Assembly (NCBI RefSeq): GCF_001729485.1
Contig: NZ_CP017157.1
Span: 124,001-188,000, forward strand
Source of the DNA: Streptomyces lydicus
GTDB taxonomy: Bacteria > Actinomycetota > Actinomycetes > Streptomycetales > Streptomycetaceae
DNA length: 64,000 bases
Direction: 5' to 3'
Part shown: positions 24,487-47,838 of the stretch, piece after piece
How the letters are laid out: each line of letters starts with the position of its first letter
Position numbering within the stretch: position 1 is the first letter of the stretch
Notes under the pieces: generated by a model
What the model saw: the letters and a program-made list of their open reading frames with translations, nothing else
What the model was told of the DNA's origin: nothing
Databases searched by the model: none
Position numbers and translations under genes: made by a program

Positions 24487-25992
24487 CTAGCGCCCGGCCC
24501 CGGGTCGGGGTACCGGTCCCGGACCCTCCACCTGCTCCAGCCCCAGCTGTGCACGCAACGCGCGCGTGTCCGGCTTTCCGTTGGCGGTGAGCGGGAAGTG
24601 GTCGACGACATGGACCGCGTTGGGCTGTTCGTACTCCGCGAGGTGCTCGGCCAGCCGCCGGCGCCAGACGAGCGGGGCCTCGCCCGCGGGGTCAGCGACG
24701 ACGAAGTGCAGGGCACTGCCGCGGCGTTGGTCCTCGACCGCCAGTACCTTGACCGGTCGCCCGCAGCTCTCGGCGCGGCGCTCCAGGCTCTCGGGGTAGA
24801 GCGTGAAGCCCAGCCGGTGGACGGCCTGATTGCGGCCCACCACCCGTACGGTTCCGTCGGCGTCGACGCTGCCCAGGTCCGCCGTCGGGTACCAGGCGTC
24901 CGGGTCGACGGGGGTGAGCGAGCCGTCCTCCTGGAGGTAGCCGGCCATCAGCCCGGGGGAGCGCACCTCGATGCCGCCGAGCTCGCCGGGGCCGGCAGCG
25001 CTGCCGTCGGGCCGTCTCACGCGCAGCCGTACGCCGGGCAGCGGACGCCCGCAGCCGTGCGGCGTCTCCGGGGTGGCCAGTGCGACATTGCCGAGTTCTG
25101 TCAGGCCGTAGCCGTCCAGCAACGGGCGGCCCATCGTCGTGCGGAAGGACTCGGCCAGCGGTGTGGGCAGCGGTGCGCCGCCCACGCCCCAGACGCGTAC
25201 GCCCGCGAGTCCGGCGCGCACCTCGGGGCGGCGGCGCACCACGCCCAGCAGCGAGTGGTACGTGGACGGGGCGGCGTCCACGGCGGTGGCGCCGTGCGCG
25301 GCGGCCTGGGTGACGGCCGCGTCGAGCCGCTGGTAGGGGGTGACGAGCAGCGTGCAACGGGCCAGCCACCACAGCAGGATGACGGAGAGCCCGTACTGGT
25401 GGGAGAAGGGCAGCAGCGGCGCGAAGACGTCGTCCGCGCGGTAGCCCATGGCCTCGATGGTGCGCAGCGAGTTGTCGAGCACCGCACGGCCCGGCTTGAC
25501 GATGCCCTTGGGCCGCCCGGTGGTGCCCGAGGACCACAGGACGAGCGCGTCGGGGCGGTGGAACCAGCGGTCCAGGTCGACCCCGGCCGGCGGGGCCGGC
25601 GGGGCGTCGGCGGGCAGCCGCGGGTAGTGGATGACGCGTTCGTCGGGGATGCCGGGGAAGCCGGCCGGGTGGTCGGCGGCGGTGACCAGCCAGCGGGCCC
25701 GGGCCTGCCGGGCGGCCGCGGCGGCGTCCGCGGCGGGCACCCGGTGGTCGAGCGGGACGAGTGAGACGTCCAGGTGCATCAGGGCCAGCAGCGTCAGGAC
25801 GTAGTCGACGCTGTTGTCGCCCTGGACCAGGACCCGGTCGCCGGCGCGGAGGCCGAGGCCGCGCAGGGCGCCCGCGGTGCCGCCGATCCGGCGACTGAGC
25901 GCCGGGCCGTCGAGGTGGCCGCCGCCGAGCGGGGCCGTGGTGCCGTCGACGAGCCGGGCGGCGGCGACCGGAGGGGCGATGGTGTCGGTCAT
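24487..25992 (-). CDS. AMP-dependent acyl-CoA/acyl-ACP ligase
   Basis: ANL-superfamily adenylating enzyme of 501 residues that activates a carboxylic acid as acyl-AMP and loads it onto CoA or an ACP. Motifs seen: ALVLWSSGTTGRPKGIVKPG (A3 P-loop, near residue 165), LLDGYGLTELGNVALA (A5), YPTADLGSVDADGTVRVVGR (A7 Asp and A8 hinge), and LTANGKPDTRAL with the catalytic Lys near residue 480 (A10). Last gene of the fabI-hadA-like-ligase operon; its ATG overlaps the preceding stop (ATGA). Together with the divergent ACP gene it probably supplies an acyl starter for the lanthipeptide cluster. Confidence 0.9.
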   Translation of the reverse strand: MTDTIAPPVAAARLVDGTTAPLGGGHLDGPALSRRIGGTAGALRGLGLRAGDRVLVQGDNSVDYVLTLLALMHLDVSLVPLDHRVPAADAAAAARQARARWLVTAADHPAGFPGIPDERVIHYPRLPADAPPAPPAGVDLDRWFHRPDALVLWSSGTTGRPKGIVKPGRAVLDNSLRTIEAMGYRADDVFAPLLPFSHQYGLSVILLWWLARCTLLVTPYQRLDAAVTQAAAHGATAVDAAPSTYHSLLGVVRRRPEVRAGLAGVRVWGVGGAPLPTPLAESFRTTMGRPLLDGYGLTELGNVALATPETPHGCGRPLPGVRLRVRRPDGSAAGPGELGGIEVRSPGLMAGYLQEDGSLTPVDPDAWYPTADLGSVDADGTVRVVGRNQAVHRLGFTLYPESLERRAESCGRPVKVLAVEDQRRGSALHFVVADPAGEAPLVWRRRLAEHLAEYEQPNAVHVVDHFPLTANGKPDTRALRAQLGLEQVEGPGPVPRPGAGR

Positions 25993-26492
25993 GGGTGCTC
26001 CGATCCCGTGGGGTCGAGGGGGCGCCGCCCGGGCCGCGGGACGGCGGCCGGGCACAGCAGTGAGGAGGTGGTGGTGGCCACCCACAGTCCGTCCGCGTCG
26101 TGGAACGCGCACTCGACGGTGAGCAGCCGGCGGTCCGCGAGGGTGGTGGCGCCGGCGAGGCGGACGGTCGCGTGGAGGGTGTCGCCGGCGTGTGCGGGGC
26201 GGGCGTGGCGCAGCGCCTGGGAGCGGTGCACCGCCCCCTCGGTGGTGATGTCGTCCCAGCCGCTGAGGAGTTGGTCCTCGGCGTGTGCGGCGAGGGTGGC
26301 GAGGTAGGTGGGCGGCGCGAGGGTGTCCGGGTGTCCGAGGGCCCGGGCGGCGGCCGGGTCGGTGTACGCGGGGTGGGGGTCACCGAGCGCGGCCGCGAAC
26401 GCGGCGATCCGCTCCCGGTCGAGTGCGTACGGGCCGCACCGGAGGACGGTGGGCGGCGCGGCCGGGGGAGGCGGCGCCGGTCTCTCCGCCAT
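25989..26492 (-). CDS. HadA-like hotdog protein (MaoC N-terminal type)
   Basis: A 167-residue hotdog-fold protein. LDRERIAAFAAALGDPHPAY, then TDPAAARALGHPDTLAPPTYL and HARPAHAGDTLHATVRL match the FAS1-like/MaoC-N dehydratase domain (HadA type). The hydratase Asp/His catalytic motif is not evident, as expected of a HadA-type subunit that needs a HadB partner; none is seen nearby. It would take part in 3-hydroxyacyl-ACP dehydration. ATG 26492 lies five bases after the fabI-like stop, and its own stop overlaps the ligase start. Confidence 0.78.
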   Translation of the reverse strand: MAERPAPPPPAAPPTVLRCGPYALDRERIAAFAAALGDPHPAYTDPAAARALGHPDTLAPPTYLATLAAHAEDQLLSGWDDITTEGAVHRSQALRHARPAHAGDTLHATVRLAGATTLADRRLLTVECAFHDADGLWVATTTSSLLCPAAVPRPGRRPLDPTGSEHP

Positions 26493-26497
26493 GACGG

Positions 26498-27268
26498 TCA
26501 GTCGCCGATCATGTGATGGCCGCCGTCCGCGTGCACGATCTCGCCGGTGGTGGCGGGCAGCCAGTCCGACAGCAGGGCCACACAGGTACGGGCCACCGGC
26601 TCGGCGTCCTGCGGGTCCCAGCCCAGCGGGGCACGGCTCGCCCAGCTCTTCTCGAAGGACGGGCCGTCGCCGCCGATGCCCCGCGCGGCCAGGGTGCGCA
26701 GCGGGCCGGCCGCGACGAGGTTGGCCCGTATGCCCTGGCCGCCGAGGTCCCGCGCCAGATAGCGCGAGCAGGCTTCGAGTCCCGCCTTCGCGACGCCCAT
26801 CCAGTCGTAGCCCGGCCAGGCGCGGGACGCGTCGAAGTCCACGCCGACGACCGAGGCGCCGGGGCGCAGCAGCGGACGGCAGGCCATGGTCAGCGCCACC
26901 AGGGAGTAGGTCGAGGTGTGCAGCGCGGCGGCCACATCGCGCCACGGCGCGGTCAGGAAGCCGCCGTCCAGGCAGGTGGCCGGGGCGTTGGCGACCGAGT
27001 GCAGCACCCCGTCGATCCCGTCGAGGTGGGCGCCGACCCGGTCGGCAAGCGTGCTGAGCTGCGTTTCGTCGGTGACGTCCAGCTCCACGACGGGGGGTTC
27101 CTCCGGGAGCCGGCGGGCGAGCCGGGCCACCAGGCTCGGCCGTCCGTACGCGGTGAGGACGATCTTGGCGCCCTCTTCCTGGGCGAGCCGGGCCACCGCG
27201 TAGGCGATGGAGCTTTCGGTGATCACACCCGTGACAACCAGCCGCTTTCCGTCGAGCAGACCGCTCAT
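26498..27268 (-). CDS. fabI: Enoyl-ACP reductase, FabI type
   Basis: NAD(P)H-dependent enoyl-ACP reductase of the short-chain dehydrogenase fold, 256 residues. The cofactor loop is VVTGVITESSIAYAVA near residue 11; VLHSVANAPA lies near residue 90; the catalytic YDWMGVAKAGLEA gives Tyr-x6-Lys at about residues 155-162; ADGGHHMIGD is at the C-terminus. A strong GGAGG precedes ATG 27268. It heads the operon with the HadA-like and ligase genes and is divergent from the ACP gene. Its position suggests a dedicated copy for a secondary-metabolite acyl chain rather than housekeeping FabI. Confidence 0.93.
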   Translation of the reverse strand: MSGLLDGKRLVVTGVITESSIAYAVARLAQEEGAKIVLTAYGRPSLVARLARRLPEEPPVVELDVTDETQLSTLADRVGAHLDGIDGVLHSVANAPATCLDGGFLTAPWRDVAAALHTSTYSLVALTMACRPLLRPGASVVGVDFDASRAWPGYDWMGVAKAGLEACSRYLARDLGGQGIRANLVAAGPLRTLAARGIGGDGPSFEKSWASRAPLGWDPQDAEPVARTCVALLSDWLPATTGEIVHADGGHHMIGD

Positions 27269-27461: not shown

Positions 27462-27716
27462 ATGACCGTCCCCACCCGCGAAGAGATCGTCGCTCAGCTC
27501 GCCGAGATCCTGCACGAGGTGGCCGGCGTGCTGCCGGCCGACGTGACCGAGGAGAAGTCCCTGGTCGAGGAGCTGGACGTGGACTCGCTGGCGATGGCCG
27601 AAGTCATCGTCGTCGCCGAGGAACGCTTCGGGATCGCTCTGCCCGAAGAGGAGATGAAGGACATGCGTAGGGTTTTGGACATAGTGCTCCGCGTGGAGAA
27701 GCAGCTGGCGTCCTGA
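27462..27716 (+). CDS. Acyl carrier protein
   Basis: An 84-residue acidic carrier protein. The phosphopantetheine attachment motif is DVDSLAMAEV, with Ser42 as the site, and helix 3 reads ERFGIALPEEEMKDMR. ATG 27462 is chosen because the fold begins there. It is divergent from the fabI operon and followed by a PPTase-like gene, which fits a dedicated carrier in this cluster. It would hold the growing or finished acyl chain for transfer. Confidence 0.94.
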   Translation: MTVPTREEIVAQLAEILHEVAGVLPADVTEEKSLVEELDVDSLAMAEVIVVAEERFGIALPEEEMKDMRRVLDIVLRVEKQLAS

Positions 27717-28024: not shown

Positions 28025-28819
28025 ATGCGGGGGGACGAGCCTTTCTGTGGCGCGCATACGCTCAACCATGACGACAGCCGGCACGGCCCGGAGCGTACGT
28101 CCAAGGAGCCTGTAAGCAGCGGGAGTTGGGGCCCGCCCGACCCCTCCGAATTAGCCGACGGCAGTTTGCACATTTTCTCGCCCACGGCCGGCGACATTCG
28201 CGAAGTCAGTTGTCTGACAGCATTTCTCGCGCGTTTACTCCATTGTTCTCCGCGCGATATTCCGGTGGTACCCGACGGCTTCGGCCGGCCGGTGTTCGCC
28301 GAGCCGCCGCCCGCCATCGGCTGGCCACCCGGCGCCCGGCTCTGCCTCGGCATCGCCGCGGACCCCGCCCGCCAGCTCCTCGCCGTGACCCGGGACCTCC
28401 CCGTCGCGCTGTCCGTGCACACCGTCCCGCACGGCCCGGTCGGCCAACTGCTGCTCCCGTTCACCGAGTTGGAACGCCGTCACGTCCAGGACGCCCCGGT
28501 CGGCCACCGGGCCCGCCGGCTGGCCCAGCTGTGGACCCGCAAGGAGGCGTCGCTGCGGCTGACCGGACCGGGCGGGCTGGCCATCGCCGACGAGATCGAC
28601 GCGCTGAGCGAGGCGCGGGACGGCAAGGTCGTGATCCCCGCGTCCCTCGCCCACCCGGGCGGCATCGCCTACGTCCGCGATCTGCCCGCCGGCCCGCAGA
28701 CCGTGGCCTGCGCGGCCACCGCCGCCCCGGCACCGCAGGTCCGCATCTGGCGGCCGGACTGCCTCGACGCGCCGGCCGGCACCCCGAGCGCACCGCCCGG
28801 CACGCCGCAGCCCGGCTGA
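28025..28819 (+). CDS. 4'-phosphopantetheinyl transferase-like protein (divergent)
   Basis: A 264-residue protein of the Sfp-like fold. The signature LWTRKEASLRLTG (W-x-x-K-E-A) lies near residue 172. The upstream Asp-x-Glu magnesium pair usually found as GIDIE aligns by eye with LSVHT, so two metal ligands seem to be replaced. Its position after the ACP gene suggests it modifies that ACP, if active. Two TTA leucine codons (28151-28153 and 28235-28237) imply bldA dependence. The C-terminal 25 residues are Pro-rich. ATG 28025 follows GAGGGG; upstream is a 300-base AT-richer gap from 27717 with no other gene. Confidence 0.8.
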   Translation: MRGDEPFCGAHTLNHDDSRHGPERTSKEPVSSGSWGPPDPSELADGSLHIFSPTAGDIREVSCLTAFLARLLHCSPRDIPVVPDGFGRPVFAEPPPAIGWPPGARLCLGIAADPARQLLAVTRDLPVALSVHTVPHGPVGQLLLPFTELERRHVQDAPVGHRARRLAQLWTRKEASLRLTGPGGLAIADEIDALSEARDGKVVIPASLAHPGGIAYVRDLPAGPQTVACAATAAPAPQVRIWRPDCLDAPAGTPSAPPGTPQPG

Positions 28820-28860: not shown

Positions 28861-30135
28861 CTACGGCATCAGCACCGCGTGCGGATCCGGCCCGTCGCCC
28901 TGCCGGCCGCCGGCGCTCAGCTCACGCCAGCTCTCCAGCGCCAGCCGGAACGCGCCGGCCTGCTCGTACCCCTCCGCGGCCTGCTTGAAGGCGGCCTCGG
29001 CGGCCTCCTCGGAGCCGTTCGCACGATGCGCGCGGGCGGTCTGCAGCAGACACCGGGCACGGTCGAGCGGCGAGAGGTCACCGGCGGCCGGATCGATCGC
29101 GGCGGCCTGCTCGGCGGCCGCCGCGGGCCGGCCCGCGCGCAGTGCCGCGGCCGTCTCCAGCACGGCCAGCCAGGTCGCCGAGGACGGCGTGTCCACCAGC
29201 GCGGCCGCCTGCCGGGCACGGGTGAGCAGCGCGTCCGCCTGCTCCGGCGGGCCCGCGGCGAGCGCCAGCAGCGTACGGGCCCGGGCCAGCCGCAGCCGGA
29301 GCCGCACGCCGTCGGTCGCGGCGAGCTGCTGCTCCGCCTCGGCCATCAGCTCCAGGGCCTGCTCCGGACGTCCGCCCAGATAGCGCGCACCGGCCACCGC
29401 CCACAGCGCGCCGGCCCGCAGCTCACCGGCCGGCAGCGACTCGACCTGCGCGGTCAGTTCCGTCCCGAGCTGCTCGGCGCGGCTCCACTCGCCGCTGTCG
29501 ACGGACGCGGACAACAGCGCCACCCGGGCCTGGGCCCGCTCCGGACGCCCGGGCTCCAGCTCGCCGGTGACCCGTACCGCCTCCTCGGCGAAGCGCACGC
29601 CCTCCGGGAGACGGCCCGCGGCGCGCAGCAGCTGGGCCAGCTCGATGGCGACCCGGGCGTGCAGCACCGGGGCGGAGCGGGTGAGCGGGTCGTCGAGGAG
29701 GTGGCGCAGCGCCGCTTCGTGGCGGTCCGGTTCGTCGAGCCGGCCGAGGACGGTGGCCAGCTCCCAGCGGGCCTCCCAGCGCACCTCGTCCTGGCCGGCG
29801 CCGCCGGTCTGCTCCACCAGGGACTCCAGCTGCCGGCGCGCCGCGGGCCAGTCGCCGGCCAGCGCACTGGCGCGGGCCGCCACCAACTGGCCGACCAGGC
29901 CCAGGCGGTGGGTCAGCCGGTCGCCCGGCTCCTCGGCGGCGCTGAGCGCCTCGACCGTCGTGCCGAGCCGTTCGGCGAGCGACCGGGCGATCTTCGCGCC
30001 CGGAATTCTGCGGCCGTTCTCCACCAGCGAGACGTAGCTGGGGGAGAGGTCGTCCCCGGCGAGGTCCCCTTGGGACAGACCCTGAGTGCGCCGGGCCTCC
30101 CGCACGCGCTTCCCGAAAGCAGGCTGCTCAATCAC
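28861..30135 (-). CDS. XRE-TPR transcriptional regulator (first of two)
   Basis: About 424 residues. The N-terminal helix-turn-helix reads FGKRVREARRTQGLSQGDLA and SPSYVSLVENGRRIPG (residues 7-50), followed by a long all-helical part of TPR-like repeats (for example WPAARRQLESLVEQTG, AIELAQLLRAAGRLPEGVRF, TARAHRANGSEEAAEAAFKQ). Such regulators bind peptides or other ligands through the TPR part. GTG 30135 is preferred because the homology starts there. It is divergent from the ALDH-like gene and is a close relative in architecture of the regulator at 35551; both probably control the lanthipeptide cluster. Confidence 0.88.
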   Translation of the reverse strand: MIEQPAFGKRVREARRTQGLSQGDLAGDDLSPSYVSLVENGRRIPGAKIARSLAERLGTTVEALSAAEEPGDRLTHRLGLVGQLVAARASALAGDWPAARRQLESLVEQTGGAGQDEVRWEARWELATVLGRLDEPDRHEAALRHLLDDPLTRSAPVLHARVAIELAQLLRAAGRLPEGVRFAEEAVRVTGELEPGRPERAQARVALLSASVDSGEWSRAEQLGTELTAQVESLPAGELRAGALWAVAGARYLGGRPEQALELMAEAEQQLAATDGVRLRLRLARARTLLALAAGPPEQADALLTRARQAAALVDTPSSATWLAVLETAAALRAGRPAAAAEQAAAIDPAAGDLSPLDRARCLLQTARAHRANGSEEAAEAAFKQAAEGYEQAGAFRLALESWRELSAGGRQGDGPDPHAVLMP

Positions 30136-30521
30136 CAAGAAAATCGCTCGCAGTTGAGTGGGGTGGACGGACGGTGACGATGTACGGACGGCTCCGGACG
30201 GAGGCCGTGTGATGACGGGGAGTCTACTCACCGGCGGTCCGCCCGGGCATGCCTGTGGACGACGTTCCCTCGTCCGGGGAGTCATTTTTTGTCACTTACG
30301 GACGTCGGGATTCCCTTTGCTGTCGGGCGCGCGTTACGACAGTTGAGAGGCGCGTCCAGCCCTACGGCGCACGGGGCGGCGGGGTGTCGTCGGGCGACCT
30401 GGAGCCATCGCGGGGGCGGCTGCTTGTCATATGAGCCAGTCGAGTGCAATGACTTTACTTGACAATAAATGACAATTGGCTGACGCTGACCCTCCATGGA
30501 CTACGCCCCCAGGAGGGACAT
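30136..30521. promoter_or_regulatory. Divergent control region with TGACA repeats
   Basis: No gene is supported in this 386-base gap. The stretch nearest the ALDH-like gene (30428-30490) is AT-rich and holds AATGACTTTACTTGACAATA followed by further TGACA units at ten-base spacing, related to the TGACT/AGTCA boxes before fabI and the ketosynthase. It should contain the promoters of the XRE-TPR and ALDH-like genes. Confidence 0.5.
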
Positions 30522-38727: not shown

Positions 38728-38758
38728 CCCCACCCACAGAGAAGGAGGTAAACGCACC

Positions 38759-39490
38759 GTGCAGGGACGACTGGTGACCTTGGAATGGCCCGGCGACGAC
38801 GACTGGGCCGCGATCGCCTCCTGGCTGCGGCCCGGCTCGCCGGCCGCCGTACTCAGCGGGGACTGGGAACTGCTGGGCGCCGCCGAGGTCGAGCAGGCCA
38901 ACCGCTCGGGCCGGGTCCACAACCTGGTGATCCGCGCCAAGGACGGCGAGCGCATCGGGACCGTGAGCTACCAGCGCTCCGGCCGGATCGGCGGCTACAC
39001 CGTCGGCGGCGCGATCGGCTCGCCCGAGCTGTGGCGCCGCGGCTACGGCGCGGAGGCCGTCGTGCTGCTCGTCGACTACCTCTTCCACCAGCTCGACGCC
39101 CACAAGGTGCAGGTCACCACCGCCGGTTACAACAAGGGCATCATCCGGCTGATGACCAAGACCCAGTTCGTGGTCGAGGGCATCCTGCGGGACCACTGCT
39201 ACCTCGACGGCGAGTACCACGACGCGATCGTGTGGGGCCTGCTGCGCGACGAGCACTACGCCTCGCTCAAGCCCAGCGACGACAACCGCGTACTGGCCGT
39301 CGGGCTCGCGGACTTCGTCCCCGAGGACGACAAGACGCAGGCCCGCGCCGTGCTCGCGGAGCACCTGGCGAGCACCGGGCGCACCGCGCTGGCGCCCTAC
39401 CTCGACGGGGCGGCGCCCCGACCGGCCGCGGTGCCCGCGGACCCGTCCGACGCCGCCGGCCGCGCCGAGCCCGCGCGAGGTGCCGCATGA
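38759..39490 (+). CDS. GNAT-family acyltransferase, candidate peptide N-acyltransferase
   Basis: A 243-residue GNAT protein of the RimJ/RimL type. The CoA-binding segment reads LWRRGYGAEAVVLLVDYLF near residue 84, following GERIGTVSYQRSGRIGGYTV. The last 40 residues are a Pro/Ala-rich tail. Its ATGA overlap with the LanKC gene and its place after the ketosynthase make it the best candidate to transfer the acyl chain to the N-terminus of the processed lanthipeptide, as reported for the GNAT enzyme of the goadvionin lipolanthine pathway. Start GTG 38759 has AAGGAGG upstream. The function is inferred from context. Confidence 0.82.
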   Translation: MQGRLVTLEWPGDDDWAAIASWLRPGSPAAVLSGDWELLGAAEVEQANRSGRVHNLVIRAKDGERIGTVSYQRSGRIGGYTVGGAIGSPELWRRGYGAEAVVLLVDYLFHQLDAHKVQVTTAGYNKGIIRLMTKTQFVVEGILRDHCYLDGEYHDAIVWGLLRDEHYASLKPSDDNRVLAVGLADFVPEDDKTQARAVLAEHLASTGRTALAPYLDGAAPRPAAVPADPSDAAGRAEPARGAA

Positions 39491-42168
39491 GAGACGGCGC
39501 CGAGAGCTTCGCCCTGGCCGACCGCACCTTCTTCGACTGGCCGGGCAACTGGGACCTGGAAGCCACCCGCTTCCCCGCCCCGCCCCTGCCCGACGGCTGG
39601 ACCCACGACGAGAACGAAGCCTGGGCCTTCTGCCGCCCGCCCGAGGACCGCCTCCCCGACCAGGGCTGGAAGATCCACGTCAGCGCGGCCCCCGACGACG
39701 CCGCCCGCACCATCGCCGACGTCGCCGCCTACTGCACCCGGCACGGCCTGACGTTCAAGTACCTCAAGAGCGCCAACGTCCTGCGCGCCCTGAGCCGCAA
39801 GTACGCCCAGCGCTCCTCGGCCGGCAAGCTGCTGACCGTCTACCCCGTCGACGAGGCCGACCTGGCCCGCACCCTCGAAGGGCTCGACGCGCTGGTCGGC
39901 GGCCGCCCCGGCCCGTACGTCCTGACCGACCTGCGCTTCCGCGAGGGCCCGCTCTACGTCCGCTACGGCGGCTTCCGCACCCACTACACGGAAGACGCCG
40001 ACGGCGAACTGGTCACGGCCTTCCACCGCCCCGACGGCACCCCGGAGCCGGACCGCCGCACCCCCGTCTTCCACACCCCCGACTGGGTCACGGTCCCCGA
40101 CGTGCTGAAGGAATCGCTGGCCGCCCGGCAGGCGCTGGACGACTTCCCCTACCGGATCACCGGGGCGCTGCAGTTCTCCAACGGCGGCGGCGTCTACCGC
40201 GCCGCGCCGCTCGGCACGGACGCCCTCGGTGCGGGCGAGACCGGTGTCGTCCTCAAGGAGGGACGGCCGTGGTCCGGGACGGACGGCGTCGGCCGCGACG
40301 CGGTCACCCGGCTCGCCCACGAGCACCGGATGCTCCAGCGGCTGGCCGGCCTCCCCGGGATACCGCGGACCTTCGGCACCCTCCAGGTGCGCGACCACCT
40401 CTTCCTGGTGCTGGAGGACATCGAGGGCCAGGACTTCCAGACCTGGCTCGCCGCCCACCACCCGCTGACCGTGCCGGACCCCGACGAGCAGGCCGTCGCG
40501 GACTACAGGGACCGCGCACTCGCCCTGTTCGGCCGCATCGAGGCGCTGGTCGCCGCGGTGCACGGGCGCGGCGTCCGGATCGGTGACCTGCACCCGGGCA
40601 ACCTCATCATCAAGCCGGGCGACGAACCCGTCCTCCTCGACTTCGAGGTCGCCGACGAGATCGACCGGGCCACCCCCAGCAGCCTGGGCGCCCCCGGCTT
40701 CCACCGCGCCGACGCGACCGGCGCGGACGGGGACCGCTACGCCCTCGCCGCGATCGGCCTGTGGCTCTTCCTGCCGCTGGCCGCCCTCGGCGGGCTCGCC
40801 CCCGACAAGGCCCCCGCCCTGCTGGCCACCGCCGCCGAGCGCTACGCCCTGCCGGACGCGCTGGTGGCGCGGCTGGCGCCGCAGCTGGCCCCCAACGACG
40901 ACACGACGTCCGAACTCCGCTCCCTGCCAGGGACGTTCCCACCCAGCGACGTCCTGGCCTCCCTGGGCCGCGGGCTGCGCGAGAGCGCCACCCCGCACCG
41001 CGCCGACCGGCTCCACCCCGGCGACTTCGAGCAGTTCGTCGAGGGGGGCGCGGGCTTCGGCCACGGCGCCGCCGGTGTCCTGTGGGCCCGGCACACCGTC
41101 CTCGGGGAGCGCGACGAGGAGGGCGCGGCCTGGCTGCGCGCCGCCGTCGACCGGGTCCCCGCCGAGCGGATCGGCTTCTACGACGGCCTGCACGGCATGG
41201 CCTACGTCTTACAGGAGCTCGGCGACGACGAGGCGGCCCAACGGGCCCTCGACCGCGCCGCGGACCGGCTCCCCGTGCGCCACTGCCCCAGCCTCTACCG
41301 CGGCCTCTCCGGCGTCGGCCTGAACCTGCTGCACTTCGCCGACGCCCTGGACCGCCCCGACCTGCGCAAGCAGGCCCTCGACCTGGCCGGCCGGGTCACC
41401 GAACGACTGGCCGCGGCCCGCACCGAACCCGTCGAGCGCAGGCGCCGACGCGGTGCGCAGGACGCCGCCGGGCTGATGTACGGCTGGTCGGGCGCCGCGC
41501 TCTTCCTGCTGCGCGCCCACCAGGCCACCGGCGACCCCGGGTTGCTGGACCAGGCGGTGCTCGCCGTCCACCGCGACCTCGACCGGTGTTCCCCCGGCCC
41601 GCAGGACACCCTCCAGGTGGACGAGGGCTTCCGGCTCCTGCCCTACCTGGACAACGGCAGCGCCGGGATCGCCCTGGTGGCCGCCGCGCTGCTGGACCAC
41701 CGGGACGACGACCGGATCCACCAGGCCCTGCCCGCCCTGCTGCGCGCCTGCGCCGCCGACTTCGTCATCGAGTCCGGCCTGCTGGGCGGACGCGCGGGAC
41801 TGCTCGCCACCCTGGCGGCCCTCCGCGAACGGGCGGCGCTCCCACCGGAACGGACCGACCGCTACCTGCGCCGGCACCTGACCAACCTCGGCCAGCACGC
41901 CATGACGCGGAACGGGGCGGTGGTCTTCCCCTGCGACGGCCGCGCCCGGATCTCCATGGACCTGGCCGGCGGCGGCGCCGGAGTCCTGCTGGCGCTCTCC
42001 ACCACCGAACGGGGCACCCCGCTGCTGCCGTTCCTCACAGACTCGCGCCCCGCGGCGGCCGTTCATCCGGCCGCACCGGGACGCGTCGGCGGCGCCCACG
42101 GTGCCGTCACCCCCACCGCCCCGTCCGGGGCAGCGGGCACTGCGCACCACGGAAGGGAGGTGTCGTAA
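39487..42168 (+). CDS. lanKC: Class III lanthipeptide synthetase
   Basis: An 893-residue three-domain enzyme that phosphorylates precursor Ser/Thr, eliminates phosphate, and cyclises onto dehydro-residues. The N-terminal lyase-type region (residues 1-210) includes TFKYLKSANVLRALSRKYAQ and GPYVLTDLRFREGPLYVRYG. The kinase region (about 215-500) has GGVYRA, RLAHEHRMLQRL, IGDLHPGNLII (catalytic Asp near 367) and LLDFEVADE. The C-terminal cyclase region (about 510-870) has LanC-like glycine repeats FYDGLHGMAYVL, LYRGLSGVGLNLL, MYGWSGAALFLL and LDNGSAGIAL without the zinc-ligand set, as in class III. A TTA codon lies at 41209-41211 (residue 575). It is followed with no gap by the first precursor gene. 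Confidence 0.95.
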   Translation: MRDGAESFALADRTFFDWPGNWDLEATRFPAPPLPDGWTHDENEAWAFCRPPEDRLPDQGWKIHVSAAPDDAARTIADVAAYCTRHGLTFKYLKSANVLRALSRKYAQRSSAGKLLTVYPVDEADLARTLEGLDALVGGRPGPYVLTDLRFREGPLYVRYGGFRTHYTEDADGELVTAFHRPDGTPEPDRRTPVFHTPDWVTVPDVLKESLAARQALDDFPYRITGALQFSNGGGVYRAAPLGTDALGAGETGVVLKEGRPWSGTDGVGRDAVTRLAHEHRMLQRLAGLPGIPRTFGTLQVRDHLFLVLEDIEGQDFQTWLAAHHPLTVPDPDEQAVADYRDRALALFGRIEALVAAVHGRGVRIGDLHPGNLIIKPGDEPVLLDFEVADEIDRATPSSLGAPGFHRADATGADGDRYALAAIGLWLFLPLAALGGLAPDKAPALLATAAERYALPDALVARLAPQLAPNDDTTSELRSLPGTFPPSDVLASLGRGLRESATPHRADRLHPGDFEQFVEGGAGFGHGAAGVLWARHTVLGERDEEGAAWLRAAVDRVPAERIGFYDGLHGMAYVLQELGDDEAAQRALDRAADRLPVRHCPSLYRGLSGVGLNLLHFADALDRPDLRKQALDLAGRVTERLAAARTEPVERRRRRGAQDAAGLMYGWSGAALFLLRAHQATGDPGLLDQAVLAVHRDLDRCSPGPQDTLQVDEGFRLLPYLDNGSAGIALVAAALLDHRDDDRIHQALPALLRACAADFVIESGLLGGRAGLLATLAALRERAALPPERTDRYLRRHLTNLGQHAMTRNGAVVFPCDGRARISMDLAGGGAGVLLALSTTERGTPLLPFLTDSRPAAAVHPAAPGRVGGAHGAVTPTAPSGAAGTAHHGREVS

Positions 42169-42255
42169 ATGACCATCATGGATCTTCAGGGTCTGGAGGT
42201 GCCGGGCGAGCGTGACGCCCAGGCTCTCGGCTCCACCGTCTCCGGCGGCTGCTGA
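42169..42255 (+). CDS. lanA1: Class III lanthipeptide precursor, copy 1
   Basis: A 28-codon gene starting at the base after the lanKC stop; GGAAGGGAGG inside the end of lanKC is its ribosome site. The leader begins MTIMDLQGLEVPGE, with the DLQ-x-L-E motif like the LLDLQ-type motif of class III leaders (AmfS/SapB type). The predicted core is the C-terminal STVSGGC, in which Ser-x2-Ser-x2-Cys is the labionin/avionin-type crosslink pattern. Such a small core is unusual. It is near-identical to copies 2 and 3, which have Ile in place of Val at residue 24. Confidence 0.88.
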   Translation: MTIMDLQGLEVPGERDAQALGSTVSGGC

Positions 42256-42261
42256 CGCGAC

Positions 42262-42300
42262 GCCGGACGGGCCGCGCACCGAAATGCACGGCCCGCCGGC
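42262..42300 (+). terminator. Hairpin between precursor copies 1 and 2
   Basis: GCCGGACGGGCCGCGCA (42262-42278) pairs with 42285-42300 apart from one bulged A and one mismatch, with a CCGAAA loop. No T-run follows, so it may act as an attenuator or as an RNA-processing/stability element for the lanKC-lanA1 transcript rather than a full stop. Confidence 0.6.
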
Positions 42301-42380
42301 TCCAGGTGTCCCGCAACGGCACCTGGTACGTCACCACCGTTGATCATCCGCGACTCACCCTCGGAAGGAGGTGTCGACAA

Positions 42381-42467
42381 ATGACCATCATGGATCTTCA
42401 GGGTCTGGAGGTGCCGGGCGAGCGTGACGCCCAGGCGCTCGGCTCCACCATCAGCGGCGGCTGCTGA
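42381..42467 (+). CDS. lanA2: Class III lanthipeptide precursor, copy 2
   Basis: A 28-codon gene, near-identical to copy 1 in leader and core, with predicted core STISGGC. AAGGAGG just upstream (about 42364-42371) is its own ribosome site, conserved with the other copies. It is separated from copy 1 by a 125-base spacer with two hairpins and from copy 3 by a spacer with tandem repeats. Encodes the same leader motif DLQGLE. All three would be LanKC substrates. Confidence 0.88.
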   Translation: MTIMDLQGLEVPGERDAQALGSTISGGC

Positions 42468-42480
42468 ACCGGCTGACCCT

Positions 42481-42540
42481 TTGACCACACGGTGCTTGAT
42501 CACACGAGGTTTGCTCACACGTTTGATCACACGGTGCTCG
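42481..42540. repeat. Tandem TTGAYCACACG repeats between precursor copies 2 and 3
   Basis: Four related 11-base units occur at 42481 (TTGACCACACG), 42496 (TTGATCACACG), 42511 (TTGCTCACACG) and 42523 (TTGATCACACG), spaced 15, 15 and 12 bases. A longer form TTGAYCACACGGTGCT is at 42481-42496 and 42523-42538. They lie in the spacer and could be a protein-binding array or a promoter element for copy 3. Confidence 0.7.
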
Positions 42541-42608
42541 GTTTCCACCACGCACCGTGCATACCACCGTACACACGTTCACCGATTCTCGGAAGGGAGG
42601 TGTCGACA

Positions 42609-42695
42609 ATGACCATCATGGACCTTCAGGGCCTGGAGGTGCCGGGCGAGCGTGACGCCCAGGCGCTCGGCTCCACCATCAGCGGCGGTTGCTGA
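42609..42695 (+). CDS. lanA3: Class III lanthipeptide precursor, copy 3
   Basis: A 28-codon gene with the same peptide as copy 2 (core STISGGC); it differs from copy 2 only in silent or near-silent bases. GGAAGGGAGG lies just upstream. A strong terminator follows 7 bases after the stop, so this is the last gene of the ketosynthase-GNAT-lanKC-lanA operon. Three copies should raise precursor supply relative to the enzyme. Confidence 0.88.
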   Translation: MTIMDLQGLEVPGERDAQALGSTISGGC

Positions 42696-42701: not shown

Positions 42702-42749
42702 GCCCGGTGGTCCCGCACTACGGTGCGGGCCACCGGGCCCCTGTGTTTT
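42702..42749 (+). terminator. Rho-independent terminator after the precursor genes
   Basis: GCCCGGTGGTCCCGCAC (42702-42718) pairs with 42723-42738 apart from a bulged T, loop TACG, followed by CCTGTGTTTT. It closes the core operon. Confidence 0.9.
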
Positions 42750-42813: not shown

Positions 42814-44643
42814 TTGAACCGGCAAGTGGGCCCGGCCCGCTCCCTGTGCGTCATCGGCTGCGGCCCGCGCGGCACCTCGATCGTCGAGCGGATCCTCGCC
42901 AACGTCCCCGCCCTGTACGGCGACCGGCCGCTGGACCTGCACGTCGTCGACCCGTACCCGCCCGGCGCCGGCCGCACCTGGCGCACCGACCAGCCCGGCC
43001 TGCTGTGGATGAACTCCGCCGCCGAGCAGGTCACCCTGTACCCCGACGCGAGCGTGGACTGCGCGGGCCCGCCGCGCCCCGGACCCACCACCGCCGGATG
43101 GCTCGACGCCCCGCTGCACGACGGGGCCTACGCCGCCCGCCGCGACCAGGGCCGCTACCTGCGCCACTTCTTCGACACCGTCACCCGCGAACTCCCCGCC
43201 ACGGTGCGGCTGTACGTCCACCGGGCGCGCGCCGTCGACCTGCGCCGGGTGACCGCGGACGGCCTGCCGCCGGCGCCGGGGGACACCCCGGCAGGCCGCC
43301 AGCAGGTGGTCCTCGACTCCGGCGAGGCACCCTTCCTGGCCGACCGGGTCGTCCTCGCCCAGGGCCACCTGGAGACCCGCACCGACCCCGCGCCGCCCGG
43401 CCTGACCCGGATCGGCCCGGGCCCCGCCGACCCGGACGCGCTGGCCGCCGTGCCGCCCGGCGAACCCGTCCTGGTCCGCGGACTGGGGCTGGTCTTCATC
43501 GACTGCCTGGCGCTGCTGACCGAGGGCCGCGGCGGCCGCTTCGTCCGCACCGCCCCCGGCGGGCCGCTGCGCTACCTGCCCTCCGGACGCGAGCCGCGGC
43601 TGTACGCGGGCTCCCGCCGCGGGGTCCCGCTGCCGCCCAAACCGGCGCGCGGCGCCCCGGACGCCCCGGCCGCGGCCCCCGCCGCCCCGCGCTTCGCCAC
43701 CCTCGACGCCTGCCGCGCCCGGCTGGCCCGTCCCGCCGCCGCCTTCGGCCGCGACGTCTGGCCGCTGGTGCTCGCCGAACTGGGCTGGTGCCACTACCGC
43801 GCGCTCTTCGCCGAGCGGCCCGCCCGTACCCGGATGAGCCGGCAGGACTTCGAGGACCAGTACGCGCTGCTGCACACCGACCCCGAGCGGCTGGCCAAGC
43901 TCGCCCGCGAGGCGGTGCCCGACCCCGCCGACCGGCTCGACCTGGACCGGCTGGCGGACCCGCTCGCCGGGCTGCGGTTCGACCGGGCCGACGACCTCCA
44001 GCGGCAGGTGCGCGGCCATCTCGCCGAGGTCCTGCGCGGTCGTACGGGGCCCGCGCGCGGGGTCGCGACCGCCCTGGTCGACGGCCTGCAACGGGCCGGT
44101 GCGGTCATCGAGGAGCTGTGGCGAGCCGGCGACCTGGCGGCCGATCAGGTCAGCGAGGCGCTGGGCCTCTTCGCGATCGGCACCCACCTCAGCTCGGGCC
44201 CGCCGCCGCTGCGCGCCGAGCAGCTGCTCGCGCTGGCCGAGGCGGGCGTGGTGACGTTCGTGGGACCCGGGATGCGGGTGGAGACCGCGGCGGCCGGCCG
44301 GCGCACGGTGTACCGGGCGACCAGCCCGGCGCTGCCCGGCGTCGCCCACGAGGCGGCCGTCCTGCTCGACGCCCGGCTGGCGGCGCCCGCACCCGAGCGG
44401 GCCGCCGATCCCCTGCTGCGCGCCCTGCTGTCCCGCGGCGAACTGGCGGCCGAGCGCACCGCGGACGGCGCCGCGAGCGGGATGCTGCGGCTGTCCGGCG
44501 CGGGACTGCACCCGATCGGTGCGGACGGCACCGAGCACCGCGACCGGATCGTCGCCGGGCCGGCGCAGTTCCCCCGCCCGGGAACCAACGCCGTCTACTT
44601 CCGGCAGAACGACGCGATCGCCCGCAGCCTGCTCGGCGACTGA
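42814..44643 (+). CDS. FAD/NAD(P)-binding protein of unknown reaction
   Basis: A 609-residue protein with an N-terminal dinucleotide fold: SLCVIGCGPRGTSIVERILA near residue 9, then ALYGDRPLDLHVVDPYPPGA. PGLLWMNSAAEQVTLYPD follows. This matches the FAD-NAD(P)-binding family (NAD_binding_9 type), found beside several RiPP and siderophore gene sets. It begins with TTG 42814 after GGAGG; no ATG near the start fits. It comes 64 bases after the lanA terminator on the same strand. A redox tailoring step on the peptide or acyl chain is possible, but unknown. It is not a LanD-type cysteine decarboxylase. Confidence 0.82.
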   Translation: MNRQVGPARSLCVIGCGPRGTSIVERILANVPALYGDRPLDLHVVDPYPPGAGRTWRTDQPGLLWMNSAAEQVTLYPDASVDCAGPPRPGPTTAGWLDAPLHDGAYAARRDQGRYLRHFFDTVTRELPATVRLYVHRARAVDLRRVTADGLPPAPGDTPAGRQQVVLDSGEAPFLADRVVLAQGHLETRTDPAPPGLTRIGPGPADPDALAAVPPGEPVLVRGLGLVFIDCLALLTEGRGGRFVRTAPGGPLRYLPSGREPRLYAGSRRGVPLPPKPARGAPDAPAAAPAAPRFATLDACRARLARPAAAFGRDVWPLVLAELGWCHYRALFAERPARTRMSRQDFEDQYALLHTDPERLAKLAREAVPDPADRLDLDRLADPLAGLRFDRADDLQRQVRGHLAEVLRGRTGPARGVATALVDGLQRAGAVIEELWRAGDLAADQVSEALGLFAIGTHLSSGPPPLRAEQLLALAEAGVVTFVGPGMRVETAAAGRRTVYRATSPALPGVAHEAAVLLDARLAAPAPERAADPLLRALLSRGELAAERTADGAASGMLRLSGAGLHPIGADGTEHRDRIVAGPAQFPRPGTNAVYFRQNDAIARSLLGD

Positions 44644-44677: not shown

Positions 44678-45454
44678 TCACCCCTGCGGCGCGTTGATCC
44701 CGTACTGCTGCGCCAGGATCGCCGCCTGCACCCGGCTGCGCAGATGCAGCTTCGACAGGATCCGGCTGATGTGGGTCTTCACGGTGCCCTCGGCGAGGCT
44801 GAGGGTCTGTGCGATGGCGCTGTTGGGCAGCCCGCGGGCGATGCACGCGAGCACCTCCAGCTCCCGCTTGGTGAGGGAGTCCAGGGCCTGCGTGGTGTCG
44901 TCCGGCAGCCCGGCACCGGCCGGCAGCGGCGGTCCGGCCGCCGGTAAGCGGCCGCTGAACTCGGTGATCAGCCGCCGGGCGATGGCCGGGGTGAGGAACC
45001 CGTCGCCGTGCGCCACCTCCCGTACGGCGCTGACCAGCACCGCCGGCTCGGCGTTCTTCAGGATGAAGCCGCCGGCCCCGGCCCGCAGCGCCCCGAAGAT
45101 GTACTCGTTGAGGTCGAAGGTGGTCAGCACCAGCACCTCGGCCAGGCCGCGCTCGACGATCCTGCGGGTGGCGGCGACGCCATTGAGCAGCGGCATCTGC
45201 ACGTCCATCAGCACCACGTCGGGCCGCAGCTCGGCGGCCATCCGGACCGCCGCCTCCCCGTCACCGGCCTCGCCGACGACGGTGATGCCCGGGTCGGTCT
45301 GCAGTACCAGGACCAGCCCGGACCGCACGGCGGCCTGGTCGTCGGCCACCAGCACCCGTATGCCGGGCGGCCGCCGGTCCGCCCCCTCCCCCGGCGCGTC
45401 CGCCGTCGCGTCCTGCACGCTGTCCTCCACCGGCTGCCTCACTGGCTGTTCCAC
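44678..45454 (-). CDS. NarL/LuxR-type response regulator
   Basis: A 258-residue response regulator. The receiver domain shows RVLVADDQAAVRSGLVLVLQ, the phospho-acceptor Asp in PDVVLMDVQMPLLNG near residue 82, and VLVLTTFDLNEYIFGALRAG. The LuxR-type DNA-binding domain at the C-terminus reads LTKRELEVLACIARGLPNSA and GTVKTHISRILSKLHLRSRVQ. The start GTG 45454 includes a 30-residue polar N-terminal extension. It pairs with the histidine kinase directly upstream, 60 bases apart. Convergent with the FAD/NAD(P) gene. Confidence 0.95.
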   Translation of the reverse strand: MEQPVRQPVEDSVQDATADAPGEGADRRPPGIRVLVADDQAAVRSGLVLVLQTDPGITVVGEAGDGEAAVRMAAELRPDVVLMDVQMPLLNGVAATRRIVERGLAEVLVLTTFDLNEYIFGALRAGAGGFILKNAEPAVLVSAVREVAHGDGFLTPAIARRLITEFSGRLPAAGPPLPAGAGLPDDTTQALDSLTKRELEVLACIARGLPNSAIAQTLSLAEGTVKTHISRILSKLHLRSRVQAAILAQQYGINAPQG

Positions 45455-45514
45455 CTCTCGTCCTCACCGCCCCCGTGCCGGACCCGGGGCCGTGTCGCCC
45501 CGGGAGTCGTCCCC

Positions 45515-46783
45515 CTATGCGTTCTGGGTCAGCGGGAGCACCGCCCGTACCCGCCAGCGCCCGGGGGCGGTGCGGTCGGGTCCCGCGTCGAAGATGCCGC
45601 CGACCAGCGCGGCCCGCTCGGACATCCCGGCGAGCCCGGCGCCGGCACCGGTGGTCAGCTGCGCCACCGGCCGCTGCCGGGTCCGGCCGTCGGAGCGGGC
45701 CAGCGGGCTGTCGACCGAAATGGTCAGCTGCTCGGCGCCGGCCTCGCAGCGGATCCGCACCCGGCCCGCGGAGGCGTGCTTGAGGACGTTGGTCAGCGCC
45801 TCCTGCACGATGCGGTACGCGGTCACCTCGATCACCGACGACACCTCGGGGAAGCTCTCGGGGAAGTCGGTGTACAGGGTCAGCGCGGCGGCGTCGGCGG
45901 CCGGCCGGGCCTGCTCGACCAGCGCGCCCAGCGCGTTGAGCTGCGGCCGGTCCCAGTCGTCGTCCACGCCCCGGTCGGACCGCAGCAGCACCACCATCCG
46001 CCGCATTTCGGCCAGTCCCTGCACGCTGTTCTCGCGGATCACCGCCAGCGCCCGCAGCACCGGGTCCTCCTCGCCGTCGTCGTCCCGGCCGCCCTCCCGC
46101 TCCCGCTTGGCCTCGCTCAGCGACAGCACGGCGCTGGAGTGGATGGCGATCGCGCTGAGGTGGTTGGCCACCAGGTCGTGCAACTCCCGTGCCATCCGGG
46201 TGCGTTCGGTCTGCAGCACGGTCTTGCGGTCCAGTTCCGCCAGCCGGTTGATCTGCGCGGCGCGCTCCCGCTCGGTGTCCGCCCGCTCCTTGTGGTTCCG
46301 TATCAACACCCCGGTCCACACCGGGGAGATGAGCAGCAGGGCGACGATGACGCCGGTCGTCACCCCCTCCGAGCGGTCGCTGATCACGATCAGGGCGACG
46401 GTGGTGGCGAGCGTGACGGCGACGGTCCCGAACTGCAGCAGCCGGCACAGCCAGGTGGCCCCGTACAGGGCGGCCGCGTACAGCAGGTCGGTGTAGATCA
46501 GCACGGGGCCCAGACCGCCGCTCGACGTCATCTCCACGAGCACGGTCACGGTGCCGACGGCGACCGCCAGCGGGGGCAGGGCGCTGCGGTAGGCGGTCGC
46601 GGCACACAGCACGAGCACCGGCAGGACCGCCTGCCAGACGGCGATGTCGCCCCCCATCACCCGGGGGCCGCCCACCACGTACAGAATCAGACAGCCGGCG
46701 AAGAATCCCACGGCCAATCTGAGGTCGCGGAGCGGTATGGGGCGGCGGCGCGCGTGCGTTCTTGTGAAAAGACGTAACCACAC
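45515..46783 (-). CDS. NarL-type sensor histidine kinase
   Basis: A 422-residue sensor kinase. About five to six membrane segments occupy residues 25-165 (LAVGFFAGCLILYVVGGP, AVLPVLVLCAATAYRSAL, LLYAAALYGATWLCRLL and others). A HisKA_3-type dimerisation domain carries the phospho-accepting His in RMARELHDLVANHLSAIAIH near residue 202, and the ATPase domain includes IVQEALTNVLKHASAG and GAGAGLAGMSERAALVGG. No large extracellular sensor is present, so it may detect membrane or envelope change. If translation starts at GTG 46783, the third codon is TTA. Partner of the response regulator at 44678. Confidence 0.93.
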   Translation of the reverse strand: MWLRLFTRTHARRRPIPLRDLRLAVGFFAGCLILYVVGGPRVMGGDIAVWQAVLPVLVLCAATAYRSALPPLAVAVGTVTVLVEMTSSGGLGPVLIYTDLLYAAALYGATWLCRLLQFGTVAVTLATTVALIVISDRSEGVTTGVIVALLLISPVWTGVLIRNHKERADTERERAAQINRLAELDRKTVLQTERTRMARELHDLVANHLSAIAIHSSAVLSLSEAKREREGGRDDDGEEDPVLRALAVIRENSVQGLAEMRRMVVLLRSDRGVDDDWDRPQLNALGALVEQARPAADAAALTLYTDFPESFPEVSSVIEVTAYRIVQEALTNVLKHASAGRVRIRCEAGAEQLTISVDSPLARSDGRTRQRPVAQLTTGAGAGLAGMSERAALVGGIFDAGPDRTAPGRWRVRAVLPLTQNA

Positions 46784-46850
46784 ACGAGGACAGTACTGGG
46801 GCGTGTCGCCCGTTCTCTTGGCCCTGGCGCCCGAATTTGGGTCGGTCTCC

Positions 46851-46878
46851 CGTACATCGAAGTATGTAGCCGTACATC
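46851..46878. promoter_or_regulatory. TACAT/ATGTA repeat upstream of the two-component genes
   Basis: CGTACATC occurs at 46851-46858 and again at 46871-46878, twenty bases apart, with ATGTA between them at 46864-46868, so TACAT and ATGTA alternate in inverted orientation. It lies 68 bases upstream of the kinase gene start and could be a binding site for the NarL-type regulator. Confidence 0.5.
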
Positions 46879-47037
46879 AGCAGGAGGGATGACTCGAAGG
46901 CTCCGGAGGATCTGCAAACCTTGGGCTGTCTGTATCGATCGATGTAGGCGAAAAAGGGGGAGACAGCTTCTGTATGACGGCCTGTCACTCACCCAGTGCG
47001 GCCTCGGCACCGCTCAACTGTGGAGGACGGAAAGTAC

Positions 47038-47838
47038 GTGGAAACGAACGCCGCTCTTCTCGAACTCTGTCCGGAACCCCTTGACCAGGACGTTCCGGAT
47101 CCTCGGCACCACCTCGTCCGGACCCCTCCGGCACCCCTCGCACCCGCACCCTCGACCGACCGTCCGCACCCGCACGACCACCCGGACGCGGCGGCCGTCC
47201 CCGTACCGATCTTCGTCGTCCCCATCGAATCCCCCACCGCACCCTCCGCAGTGTCCCCCGCGTTCGACGGCTCCACCAGCCTGCTGTCCCCGGACAACTG
47301 CCTGGGCCTGAACGGCCATTCCAGAGCCACCCTCGACGGCGCGTCCCGCAGCTGGCTGCTGGCCCGGCTCCCCGCCCGGGTGGCCACCGCGATGGCCGCC
47401 GCCACCCACTGGGAGCTCTACGGCACCCGCGGCCTGCTGGTGGTGGCGTGCGGTGAGGACGCCCGCAGGATGGGTTTCTCGGTGGAGTCCGTCCGCCGCG
47501 AGGCCGCCGCCCCGACCACCCCGTACGAGGTGCTGACCGCCCGGGAGGCGCGGCTCGCGGCCACCTGCCCGGACGCCGAACGGGAGCGTCTCATCACCCG
47601 TTTCTGGGTCCGCAAGGACGCCGCCATGCAGGCCGTCGGCCGCGGTCTGTCCATCGCTCCGGAGCGTATCGAGGCCGGCTTTCCCACCGACCACGGCACG
47701 GTCAGCGTGCCGGGCCCGTACGGCCTGGAAGTCCCCGTTTCGGTAAGGAACTTCGCCTTCGCGGCCTCTTACGAGTTCGCGGTGGCCACCGCTGAACCCC
47801 TTCCGATCGCCCCTTCCTTCGCCTATTCGGGCACGTAA
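47038..47838 (+). CDS. Second phosphopantetheinyl transferase-like protein (divergent)
   Basis: About 266 residues. The segment RFWVRKDAAMQAVGRGLSIA near residue 198 matches the W-x-x-K-E-A signature with Asp in place of Glu. The GIDIE metal motif aligns by eye with GFSVES, so the first Asp is replaced by Ser. An Ala-rich, Pro-rich first 70 residues precede the fold. GTG 47038 is preferred for its upstream GGAGG-like site; GTG 46996 is possible. It resembles the PPTase-like gene at 28025 in having altered metal ligands. Whether it is active or has become a binding protein is unclear. Confidence 0.72.
   Translation: METNAALLELCPEPLDQDVPDPRHHLVRTPPAPLAPAPSTDRPHPHDHPDAAAVPVPIFVVPIESPTAPSAVSPAFDGSTSLLSPDNCLGLNGHSRATLDGASRSWLLARLPARVATAMAAATHWELYGTRGLLVVACGEDARRMGFSVESVRREAAAPTTPYEVLTAREARLAATCPDAERERLITRFWVRKDAAMQAVGRGLSIAPERIEAGFPTDHGTVSVPGPYGLEVPVSVRNFAFAASYEFAVATAEPLPIAPSFAYSGT

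Follow-up and report, generated by a model that had tools for sequence, protein, structure and literature searches.

The 64-kb window analysed here (the whole stretch of DNA, from Streptomyces lydicus) carries lanthipeptide genes and genes for a fatty acyl chain between 24487 and 47838. Genes were read by gene calls together with Pfam and NCBIfam profile searches. The LanKC synthetase scored above its curated cut-off and the precursors contained SxxSxxC cores, so this is a class III lanthipeptide locus. Its features are given below; genes called fus-like resemble those of the fusaricidin cluster of Paenibacillus polymyxa.

24487..25992, minus: AMP-dependent acyl ligase, fusF-like (PF00501, 179 bits; kept in relatives)
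25989..26492, minus: HadA/MaoC-like dehydratase (PF13452, FAS1_DH_region, 67.7 bits)
26498..27268, minus: FabI-type enoyl-acyl carrier protein reductase, fusG-like (NCBIfam PRK07889, 396 bits, cut-off 299)
27462..27716, plus: acyl carrier protein (ACP; PF00550, 37.4 bits)
28025..28819, plus: phosphopantetheinyl-transferase-like protein (PPTase1; PF01648, weak, 20.6 bits, below the cut-off of 25)
28861..30285, minus: XRE/TPR regulator, xre1 (PF01381, PF13424)
30459..31763, plus: aldehyde dehydrogenase (ALDH)-like enzyme, fusE-like; catalytic Cys present, catalytic Glu absent (PF00171, 86 bits)
31760..33469, plus: thiamine diphosphate (ThDP) enzyme, fusD-like; Gln where the activating Glu normally stands (three TPP domains)
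33732..34484, minus: ABC-2 type permease (PF01061, 104.9 bits; kept in relatives)
34559..35479, minus: DUF1707/LiaF-like protein (domain scan)
35461..36798, plus: second XRE regulator (PF01381)
36857..37165, minus: small DUF5708 protein; true start probably closer to 37036 (aligned length in relatives and an ATG at about 37036)
37468..38727, plus: FabF-type ketosynthase (KS), fusC-like (TIGR03150, 490.9 bits against a cut-off of 493.75; PRK07314, 481 against 387)
38759..39490, plus: GNAT acyltransferase, proposed to couple the acyl chain to the peptide (PF13302, 48.5 bits)
39487..42168, plus: LanKC class III lanthipeptide synthetase (NF038151, 917 bits, cut-off 575; RamC_N, kinase and LANC domains)
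42169..42255, plus: precursor 1 (lanA1), ending in GSTVSGGC, the core sequence of solabiomycin B
42381..42467, plus: precursor 2 (lanA2), ending in GSTISGGC, the core sequence of solabiomycin A
42609..42695, plus: precursor 3 (lanA3), ending in GSTISGGC, the core sequence of solabiomycin A
42702..42738, plus: hairpin 3' of the precursors, a possible terminator or attenuator (-44.3 kcal/mol, z -6.5; 16 pairs, one bulge in the inner stem)
42814..44643, plus: FAD/NADPH monooxygenase of 609 residues, candidate SolS sulfoxidase (PF13454; PDB 8cp2, 281 bits, full length)
44678..45454, minus: LuxR-type response regulator (RR; domain scan)
45515..46783, minus: sensor histidine kinase (HK; domain scan)
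46996..47838, plus: second PPTase-like protein (PPTase2; PF01648, 22.2 bits, below the cut-off of 25; kept in six of six close relatives)

The genes for KS, GNAT, LanKC and the three precursors are arranged head to tail on the plus strand (37468..42695), and the start of the LanKC gene overlaps the end of the GNAT gene by 4 bases. Each precursor has 28 residues and reads MTIMDLQGLEVPGERDAQAL followed by GSTVSGGC (once) or GSTISGGC (twice). Their leaders contain the DLQ motif expected in class III lanthipeptide precursors. A sequence-only reading of the window had grouped these six genes and had placed ACP, FabI, HadA-like, ligase, PPTase-like, ALDH-like and ThDP genes upstream of them. All were recovered with the families named, the PPTase-like protein falling under the Pfam cut-off. 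The heptapeptide core proposed there is in fact the octapeptide GST[V/I]SGGC, and the flavin monooxygenase gene after lanA3 was absent from that reading.

The hairpin separates lanA3 from the flavin gene, which may therefore sit on a weaker or separate transcript, and precursor mRNA may thereby outnumber flavin-gene mRNA. A terminator scan near the hairpin gave one terminator (42727..42740) against 0.5 expected. No ATPase gene was recognised alongside the permease. The same genome encodes a second class III synthetase-like gene (G000:C1:3666922-3669528), which is 42% identical and has one stop inside the match.

For comparison, named GTDB genomes were searched with the ALDH-like protein. The search returned 136 related stretches, the best 80 of which were kept as the 80 named loci, and LanKC was encoded in the DNA fetched for 27 of them. 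The flanks reached at most 10 kb, too short to include the flavin gene in loci of the window type; counts among LanKC loci are therefore lower bounds.

The encoded cores and the solabiomycins

In a 2026 review (PMC13192320), solabiomycins A and B from Streptomyces lydicus are tabulated as 1*GG^2*IA^^GGA^ and 1*GG^2*VA^^GGA^, the legend defining 1 as 13-guanidinotridecanoyl, 2 as dehydrobutyrine and ^ as sulfoxide bridges. These are small ring-shaped lipopeptides that contain a labionin sulfoxide, carry a charged fatty tail and inhibit some bacteria; the review cites Asamizu et al. 2022 and Ijichi et al. 2023 (SolS) for them. The cores GSTISGGC and GSTVSGGC observed here agree with A and B, respectively, at eight of eight positions, and both variants are encoded. 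Among the best 80 of the 136 stretches, the closest named genome was that of S. lydicus NRRL ISP-5461, presumably the published solabiomycin producer. Its ALDH-like protein was 99% identical. Of the 21 kb of its DNA compared, 17.7 kb were about 96% identical to the window, and the 3.2-kb left part was 93% identical.

The window thus very probably carries the gene cluster for solabiomycin biosynthesis, in a strain resembling Streptomyces lydicus. The cluster is already known and not new, so the locus is not the undescribed kind that had been proposed; its precursors spell solabiomycins A and B.

The masses point in the same direction. Assuming three dehydrations, one oxygen, a retained carboxylate and the guanidinotridecanoyl chain, average masses of 896.07 and 882.04 were computed. 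The minimal inhibitory concentrations (MICs) tabulated in the review are 3.49 and 3.55 µM (PMC13192320), and multiplied by these masses they become 3.127 and 3.131 µg/mL, near the usual dilution step of 3.125, a back-calculation that presumes a two-fold dilution series and is a consistency check rather than a proof. Without the oxygen, the conversion yields 3.071 and 3.074 µg/mL.

That presumption is one of several points that weigh against the solabiomycin assignment. The oxygen-free version is just 2% off in the same conversion. The match draws on the cores and on the structures tabulated in the review. The gene at 42814..44643 is a candidate for SolS, yet the solved protein most closely related to its product is an N-hydroxylase, not a sulfoxidase. 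The odd C13 chain is not explained by a simple starter route from arginine to 4-guanidinobutyryl. Finally, no ThDP gene was found in the DNA examined of six of the 27 named loci with LanKC (L117, L123, L135, L136, L139 and L148), so that not every relative displays the full set of ligase, ALDH-like and ThDP genes.

The flavin monooxygenase as candidate SolS

At an E-value of 0.001, the only sequence relative of the flavin protein in the PDB was the L-aspartate N-hydroxylase 8cp2, matched over the full length. Key residues were taken from the paper on this enzyme. The window protein retains R13, N62, R266, R276, R577 and R593, while the aspartate-binding R409, R412, N413 and R416 are replaced by V, L, Q and G. 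Thirteen homologues were compared at these positions. N62 and R276 were kept in all 13, R266 was changed in two (L085 and L139) and R577 in three of the six readable, while R409, R412, N413 and R416 were kept in none (one had a gap at N413). Thus the two proteins share the flavin site over a full-length alignment, and the Arg/Asn cluster that holds aspartate in the helical domain of 8cp2 is lost here. The retained fold and missing substrate residues indicate an oxygenase of the 8cp2 fold, probably acting on another substrate. Aspartate N-hydroxylation, and with it nitrite supply, was rejected on this ground.

The flavin gene family was detected in six of the 27 named loci with LanKC and in none of the 53 without it. 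In addition, the genes scanned from 24.4 to 47.9 kb include no other that is oxygenase-like. As the family turned up solely beside LanKC and the labionin sulfur is the reported site of oxidation, its best assignment is SolS, and we infer that 42814..44643 probably encodes the labionin sulfoxidase SolS. The comparison therefore offers a likely gene for this enzyme.

It is also conceivable, if rather unlikely, that the flavin enzyme hydroxylates the nitrogen of an amine or guanidine in the acyl chain and that SolS is another gene. The 281-bit full-length match to 8cp2 and the flavin-site Asn, conserved throughout, would agree with such a role. However, the family was found in none of the 53 cassette loci that have no LanKC, so it tracks the peptide and not the chain. 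The loss of the four aspartate-site residues in the window protein and all 13 homologues also argues against it, as does the scan that found no other oxygenase-like gene. Moreover, the review gives the chain as plain guanidinotridecanoyl and the oxidation as a sulfoxide (PMC13192320).

Ring type and conservation of the cluster

A labionin ring was favoured over avionin for the assigned solabiomycin product because no LanD gene lies nearby and because of the mass check. No PF02441 (LanD) gene was detected in the window; of the four in the genome, the one closest to LanKC is about 51 kb away. Of ten relatives, only G193 had a PF02441 match near the cluster, which was weak (26.5 bits), unconserved and situated in an extra stretch between the flavin gene and RR that is missing from the window.

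It is very unlikely that the product is a true lipolanthine with an avionin ring, its C-terminal Cys being decarboxylated by a LanD encoded elsewhere. An SxxSxxC core with C-terminal Cys would permit avionin, and any of the four PF02441 genes could be invoked. Against this stand the scarcity of such genes near the cluster and the MICs, which the avionin version converts into 2.967 and 2.968 µg/mL, that is 2.97 and no usual dilution step. A title cited in the review also names the ring labionin/solabionin (PMC13192320). The masses favour labionin bearing a free carboxylate over avionin, and the avionin lipolanthine was dismissed on the PF02441 search and the masses.

A LanKC search among 392 genomes of the genus, followed by tblastn comparison of the flanks, identified six close orthologues (80-89% alike). 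Gene order around LanKC was unchanged in all six. The block genes displayed 55-96% protein identity and the precursors 79-100%, although the G193 contig stops after xre1, leaving the part from ligase to PPTase1 outside the view there. This recurrence indicates that the clustering is not due to chance. RR, HK and PPTase2 came next in all six; in G193 and G347, additional genes separate RR from the flavin gene. The left-flank genes (fatty acid desaturase and DUF5994) were kept in four of the five fetched flanks, and the fifth had DUF5994 only. Because flank genes are conserved too, shared gene order alone is no proof of a single cluster.

Three diverged genomes (G036, G048 and G042) gave better evidence. 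Their LanKC was 47-48%, KS 53-54% and GNAT 46-48% alike, and their acyl proteins were closer (ALDH 76-77%, ThDP 70-72%, ACP 68-70%, FabI 86-89% and ligase 72-75%). The core genes around LanKC were in changed order, FabI adjoined the single detected precursor, and the dehydratase was detected in one of the three at the threshold used. The same genes regrouped in three diverged clusters argue more strongly for one cluster than conserved order does. The reading from the letters of the window, a class III mini-lanthipeptide beside dedicated fatty-acid-like genes in a single cluster whose product is N-acylated, was borne out, and the cluster is conserved.

That two independent neighbours are present, a lanthipeptide cluster at 37-44 kb and an unrelated fatty-acid-like cluster at 24-33 kb, is extremely improbable: permease, DUF1707, XRE and DUF5708 genes do intervene and the acyl genes lie partly on the opposite strand, but the diverged clusters have reordered the same genes with FabI adjoining and the ligase at most 3 kb from the precursor, LanKC recurs within the flanks of 27 of the 80 named ALDH loci, and the known product, as described in the review, bears an acyl chain.

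In these three sister clusters (L040, L041 and L042 of G036, G048 and G042) a core ending in SSTVSSHC was read in two, and the flavin gene had no match in the fetched DNA. The G048 region further encodes an arginase-family protein after FabI, a P450, a ribonucleotide-reductase-small-chain/AurF-like protein, a glycosyltransferase and a second KS-like protein. The tail of the products of the three clusters may be an amine instead of a guanidine.

The acyl cassette and comparison with known systems

Within the genus, the ALDH-like protein had matches in 30 of the 392 genomes at E <= 1e-60, and 15 of 21 further matches were fetched. Ligase and ALDH-like protein formed one open frame in 12 of these 15 loci; a reading of the long frames as ALDH-ThDP fusions was discarded when they proved to be ligase-ALDH. 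The ThDP gene was present in all 15. Among the named loci, GNAT accompanied 20 of the 27 with LanKC and four of the other 53, and Paenibacillus accounted for 17 of the 80.

The lipid genes of the Paenibacillus polymyxa fusaricidin cluster are fusG (enoyl-ACP reductase), fusF (acyl-CoA ligase, 1461 bp), fusE (aldehyde dehydrogenase, 1224 bp), fusD (acetolactate synthase, 1701 bp), fusC (ketoacyl synthase) and fusB, annotated as '(3R)-hydroxymyristoyl-acyl carrier protein', next to fusA, the nonribosomal peptide synthetase (NRPS) gene (PMC6829208). We read fusB as the dehydratase. The same text reports that single knock-outs of fusB to fusG abolished antifungal activity and fusaricidin peaks, and that the tail is 15-guanidino-3-hydroxypentadecanoyl (PMC6829208). 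The Paenibacillus brasilensis locus L133 had the fus families in fus order, with open reading frames of 1461, 1224 and 1701 bp equal in length to fusF, fusE and fusD, and with an NRPS after the FabA-like dehydratase; by order and lengths it was taken for the fus locus.

The window likewise holds ligase, ALDH, ThDP, KS and enoyl reductase genes together with a dehydratase. As these match fusC to fusG, the mix of ThDP and ALDH-like enzymes represents the known guanidino-acyl cassette. The sequence-only reading had called this mix unfamiliar; it was already described as fusD and fusE. A literature search by the names of the cassette enzymes found no paper with five of the six terms, and the viral contigs scanned held no relative of the ALDH-like protein. 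Stetter chemistry of the PigD/PigE (prodigiosin) kind was considered and was superseded by the fusaricidin match.

The closest solved relatives of the ThDP enzyme were BbmA, CsmA (CybE-type) and the 2-hydroxyacyl-CoA lyase HACL, matched over nearly the whole length at 142-167 bits. BbmA has Glu where the window enzyme has Gln52. The motif was RDQR in 25 aligned rows, and each of the 74 named loci that could be read, with the presumed FusD of L133 among them, has Gln in place of Glu (six of the 80 had no ThDP match). The GDG Asp and the Asn were kept in 71 of 71 readable loci. The enzyme therefore lacks the activating Glu of canonical ThDP decarboxylases and carboligases. In the ALDH-like protein, the catalytic Cys was present in all 80 named loci. 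By alignment to known ALDHs, Glu never occurred in the 80 at residues 202 and 203 next to the ELGG position, and 204 was an invariant Gly in 13 aligned. The pair of Cys and ELGG Glu of canonical hydrolytic ALDHs is thus incomplete. Thioester-forming ALDHs, such as the CoA-acylating ones and LuxC, are known to lose the ELGG Glu. Two relatives matched LuxC weakly, the second just below the cut-off.

The most likely task of the ligase, ALDH-like and ThDP trio is to make an acyl thioester starter from a basic acid or 2-oxo acid. The familiar starter, 4-guanidinobutyryl from arginine, would yield even chains. Both reported tails are odd (C13 in solabiomycin and C15 in fusaricidin), hence the starter must be C3 or C5, or the carbon count must change by one. 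The only amidinotransferase gene (PF02274) of the genome lies far from the window, so that a homoarginine route is neither supported nor excluded. Speculatively, the trio may be a distinct starter machine, common to lipopeptides of ribosomal and NRPS origin, in which a ThDP enzyme without activating Glu and a thioester-type ALDH shift a basic amino-acid skeleton by one carbon; we regard this as a doubtful but possible scheme. If true, it would account for both odd chains.

The leader cleavage site and the following enzyme steps are inferred from the gene families. LanKC would phosphorylate and dehydrate both Ser and the Thr of GST[V/I]SGGC and close the labionin from Ser, Ser and Cys, leaving Thr as dehydrobutyrine. 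The trio would hand a guanidino starter to the dedicated ACP, and the FabF-type KS, the HadA-like dehydratase and FabI, with FabG and FabD of the host, would elongate it to 13-guanidinotridecanoyl-ACP. Once the leader is removed, GNAT may attach this chain to the N-terminal Gly. The flavin monooxygenase, as SolS, would convert the labionin sulfur to the sulfoxide.

Several loci differed in their surroundings. L149, L153, L160 and L163 (Fictibacillus, Bacillus and Brevibacillus) encoded ligase, ALDH-like protein, ThDP enzyme and a GNAT (36-37% to that of the window), with no LanKC match in the flanks, and in three of the four a small secreted-looking peptide ending in DDPIIGHH lay near the GNAT. 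In L087 the cassette stood beside NRPS, ATP-grasp, AurF and YqcI/YcgG genes, possibly a different type of product that draws on this starter machinery. L083, L084 and L086 looked similar in layout. Two cassette loci each occurred in S. rimosus NRRL WC-3904 (L102 and L128; one with LanKC, the other without in the DNA examined) and in Paenibacillus brasilensis (L133 and L165). Outside Streptomyces, ligase, ALDH-like protein and LanKC were found together in L117 and L123 (Crossiella), L135 and L136 (Prauserella), L139 (Amycolatopsis), L148 (Frankia), L157 (Kutzneria) and L158 (a Microbacteriaceae bin), and five of the eight loci yielded precursor cores, among them GSTVSNNC and GSTVSGGC. Other tails and rings may be made by sister clusters such as those of S. 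rimosus, S. virginiae, Crossiella, Prauserella and Kutzneria. With the locus itself explained, the remaining interest lies in these clusters and in the starter chemistry.

The window and the solabiomycins described in the review agree in the core octapeptides, which are identical, in the S. lydicus origin and in genes suited to a labionin-type ring and an acyl chain, with one flavin oxygenase gene as a candidate for the sulfoxide step; no difference was seen. Microvionin and goadvionin are lipolanthines, and the sequence-only reading had called the locus lipolanthine-like. This holds for the class III LanKC, the mini core and the genes for an N-acyl chain beside it, but not for avionin and LanD membership, since no PF02441 gene is near and the ring would be a labionin sulfoxide. 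In lipoavitide the short acyl group is made by KASIII; a likeness to it was set aside, the KS here being FabF-type. The lipolanthine nocaviogua carries a bismethylated guanidino fatty acid. The fusaricidin lipid genes share with the window the enoyl reductase, ligase, ALDH, acetolactate-synthase-like enzyme and KS, and an odd-chain guanidino fatty acyl product. In fusaricidin the chain bears a 3-hydroxyl and goes to an NRPS, whereas in the window GNAT is proposed to load it onto the lanthipeptide. The dehydratase is FabA-like beside the presumed P. brasilensis cassette and MaoC-like in the window, where the cassette genes are spread over both strands, unlike those of fusaricidin. One acyl cassette thus links the ribosomal solabiomycins and the nonribosomal fusaricidins.

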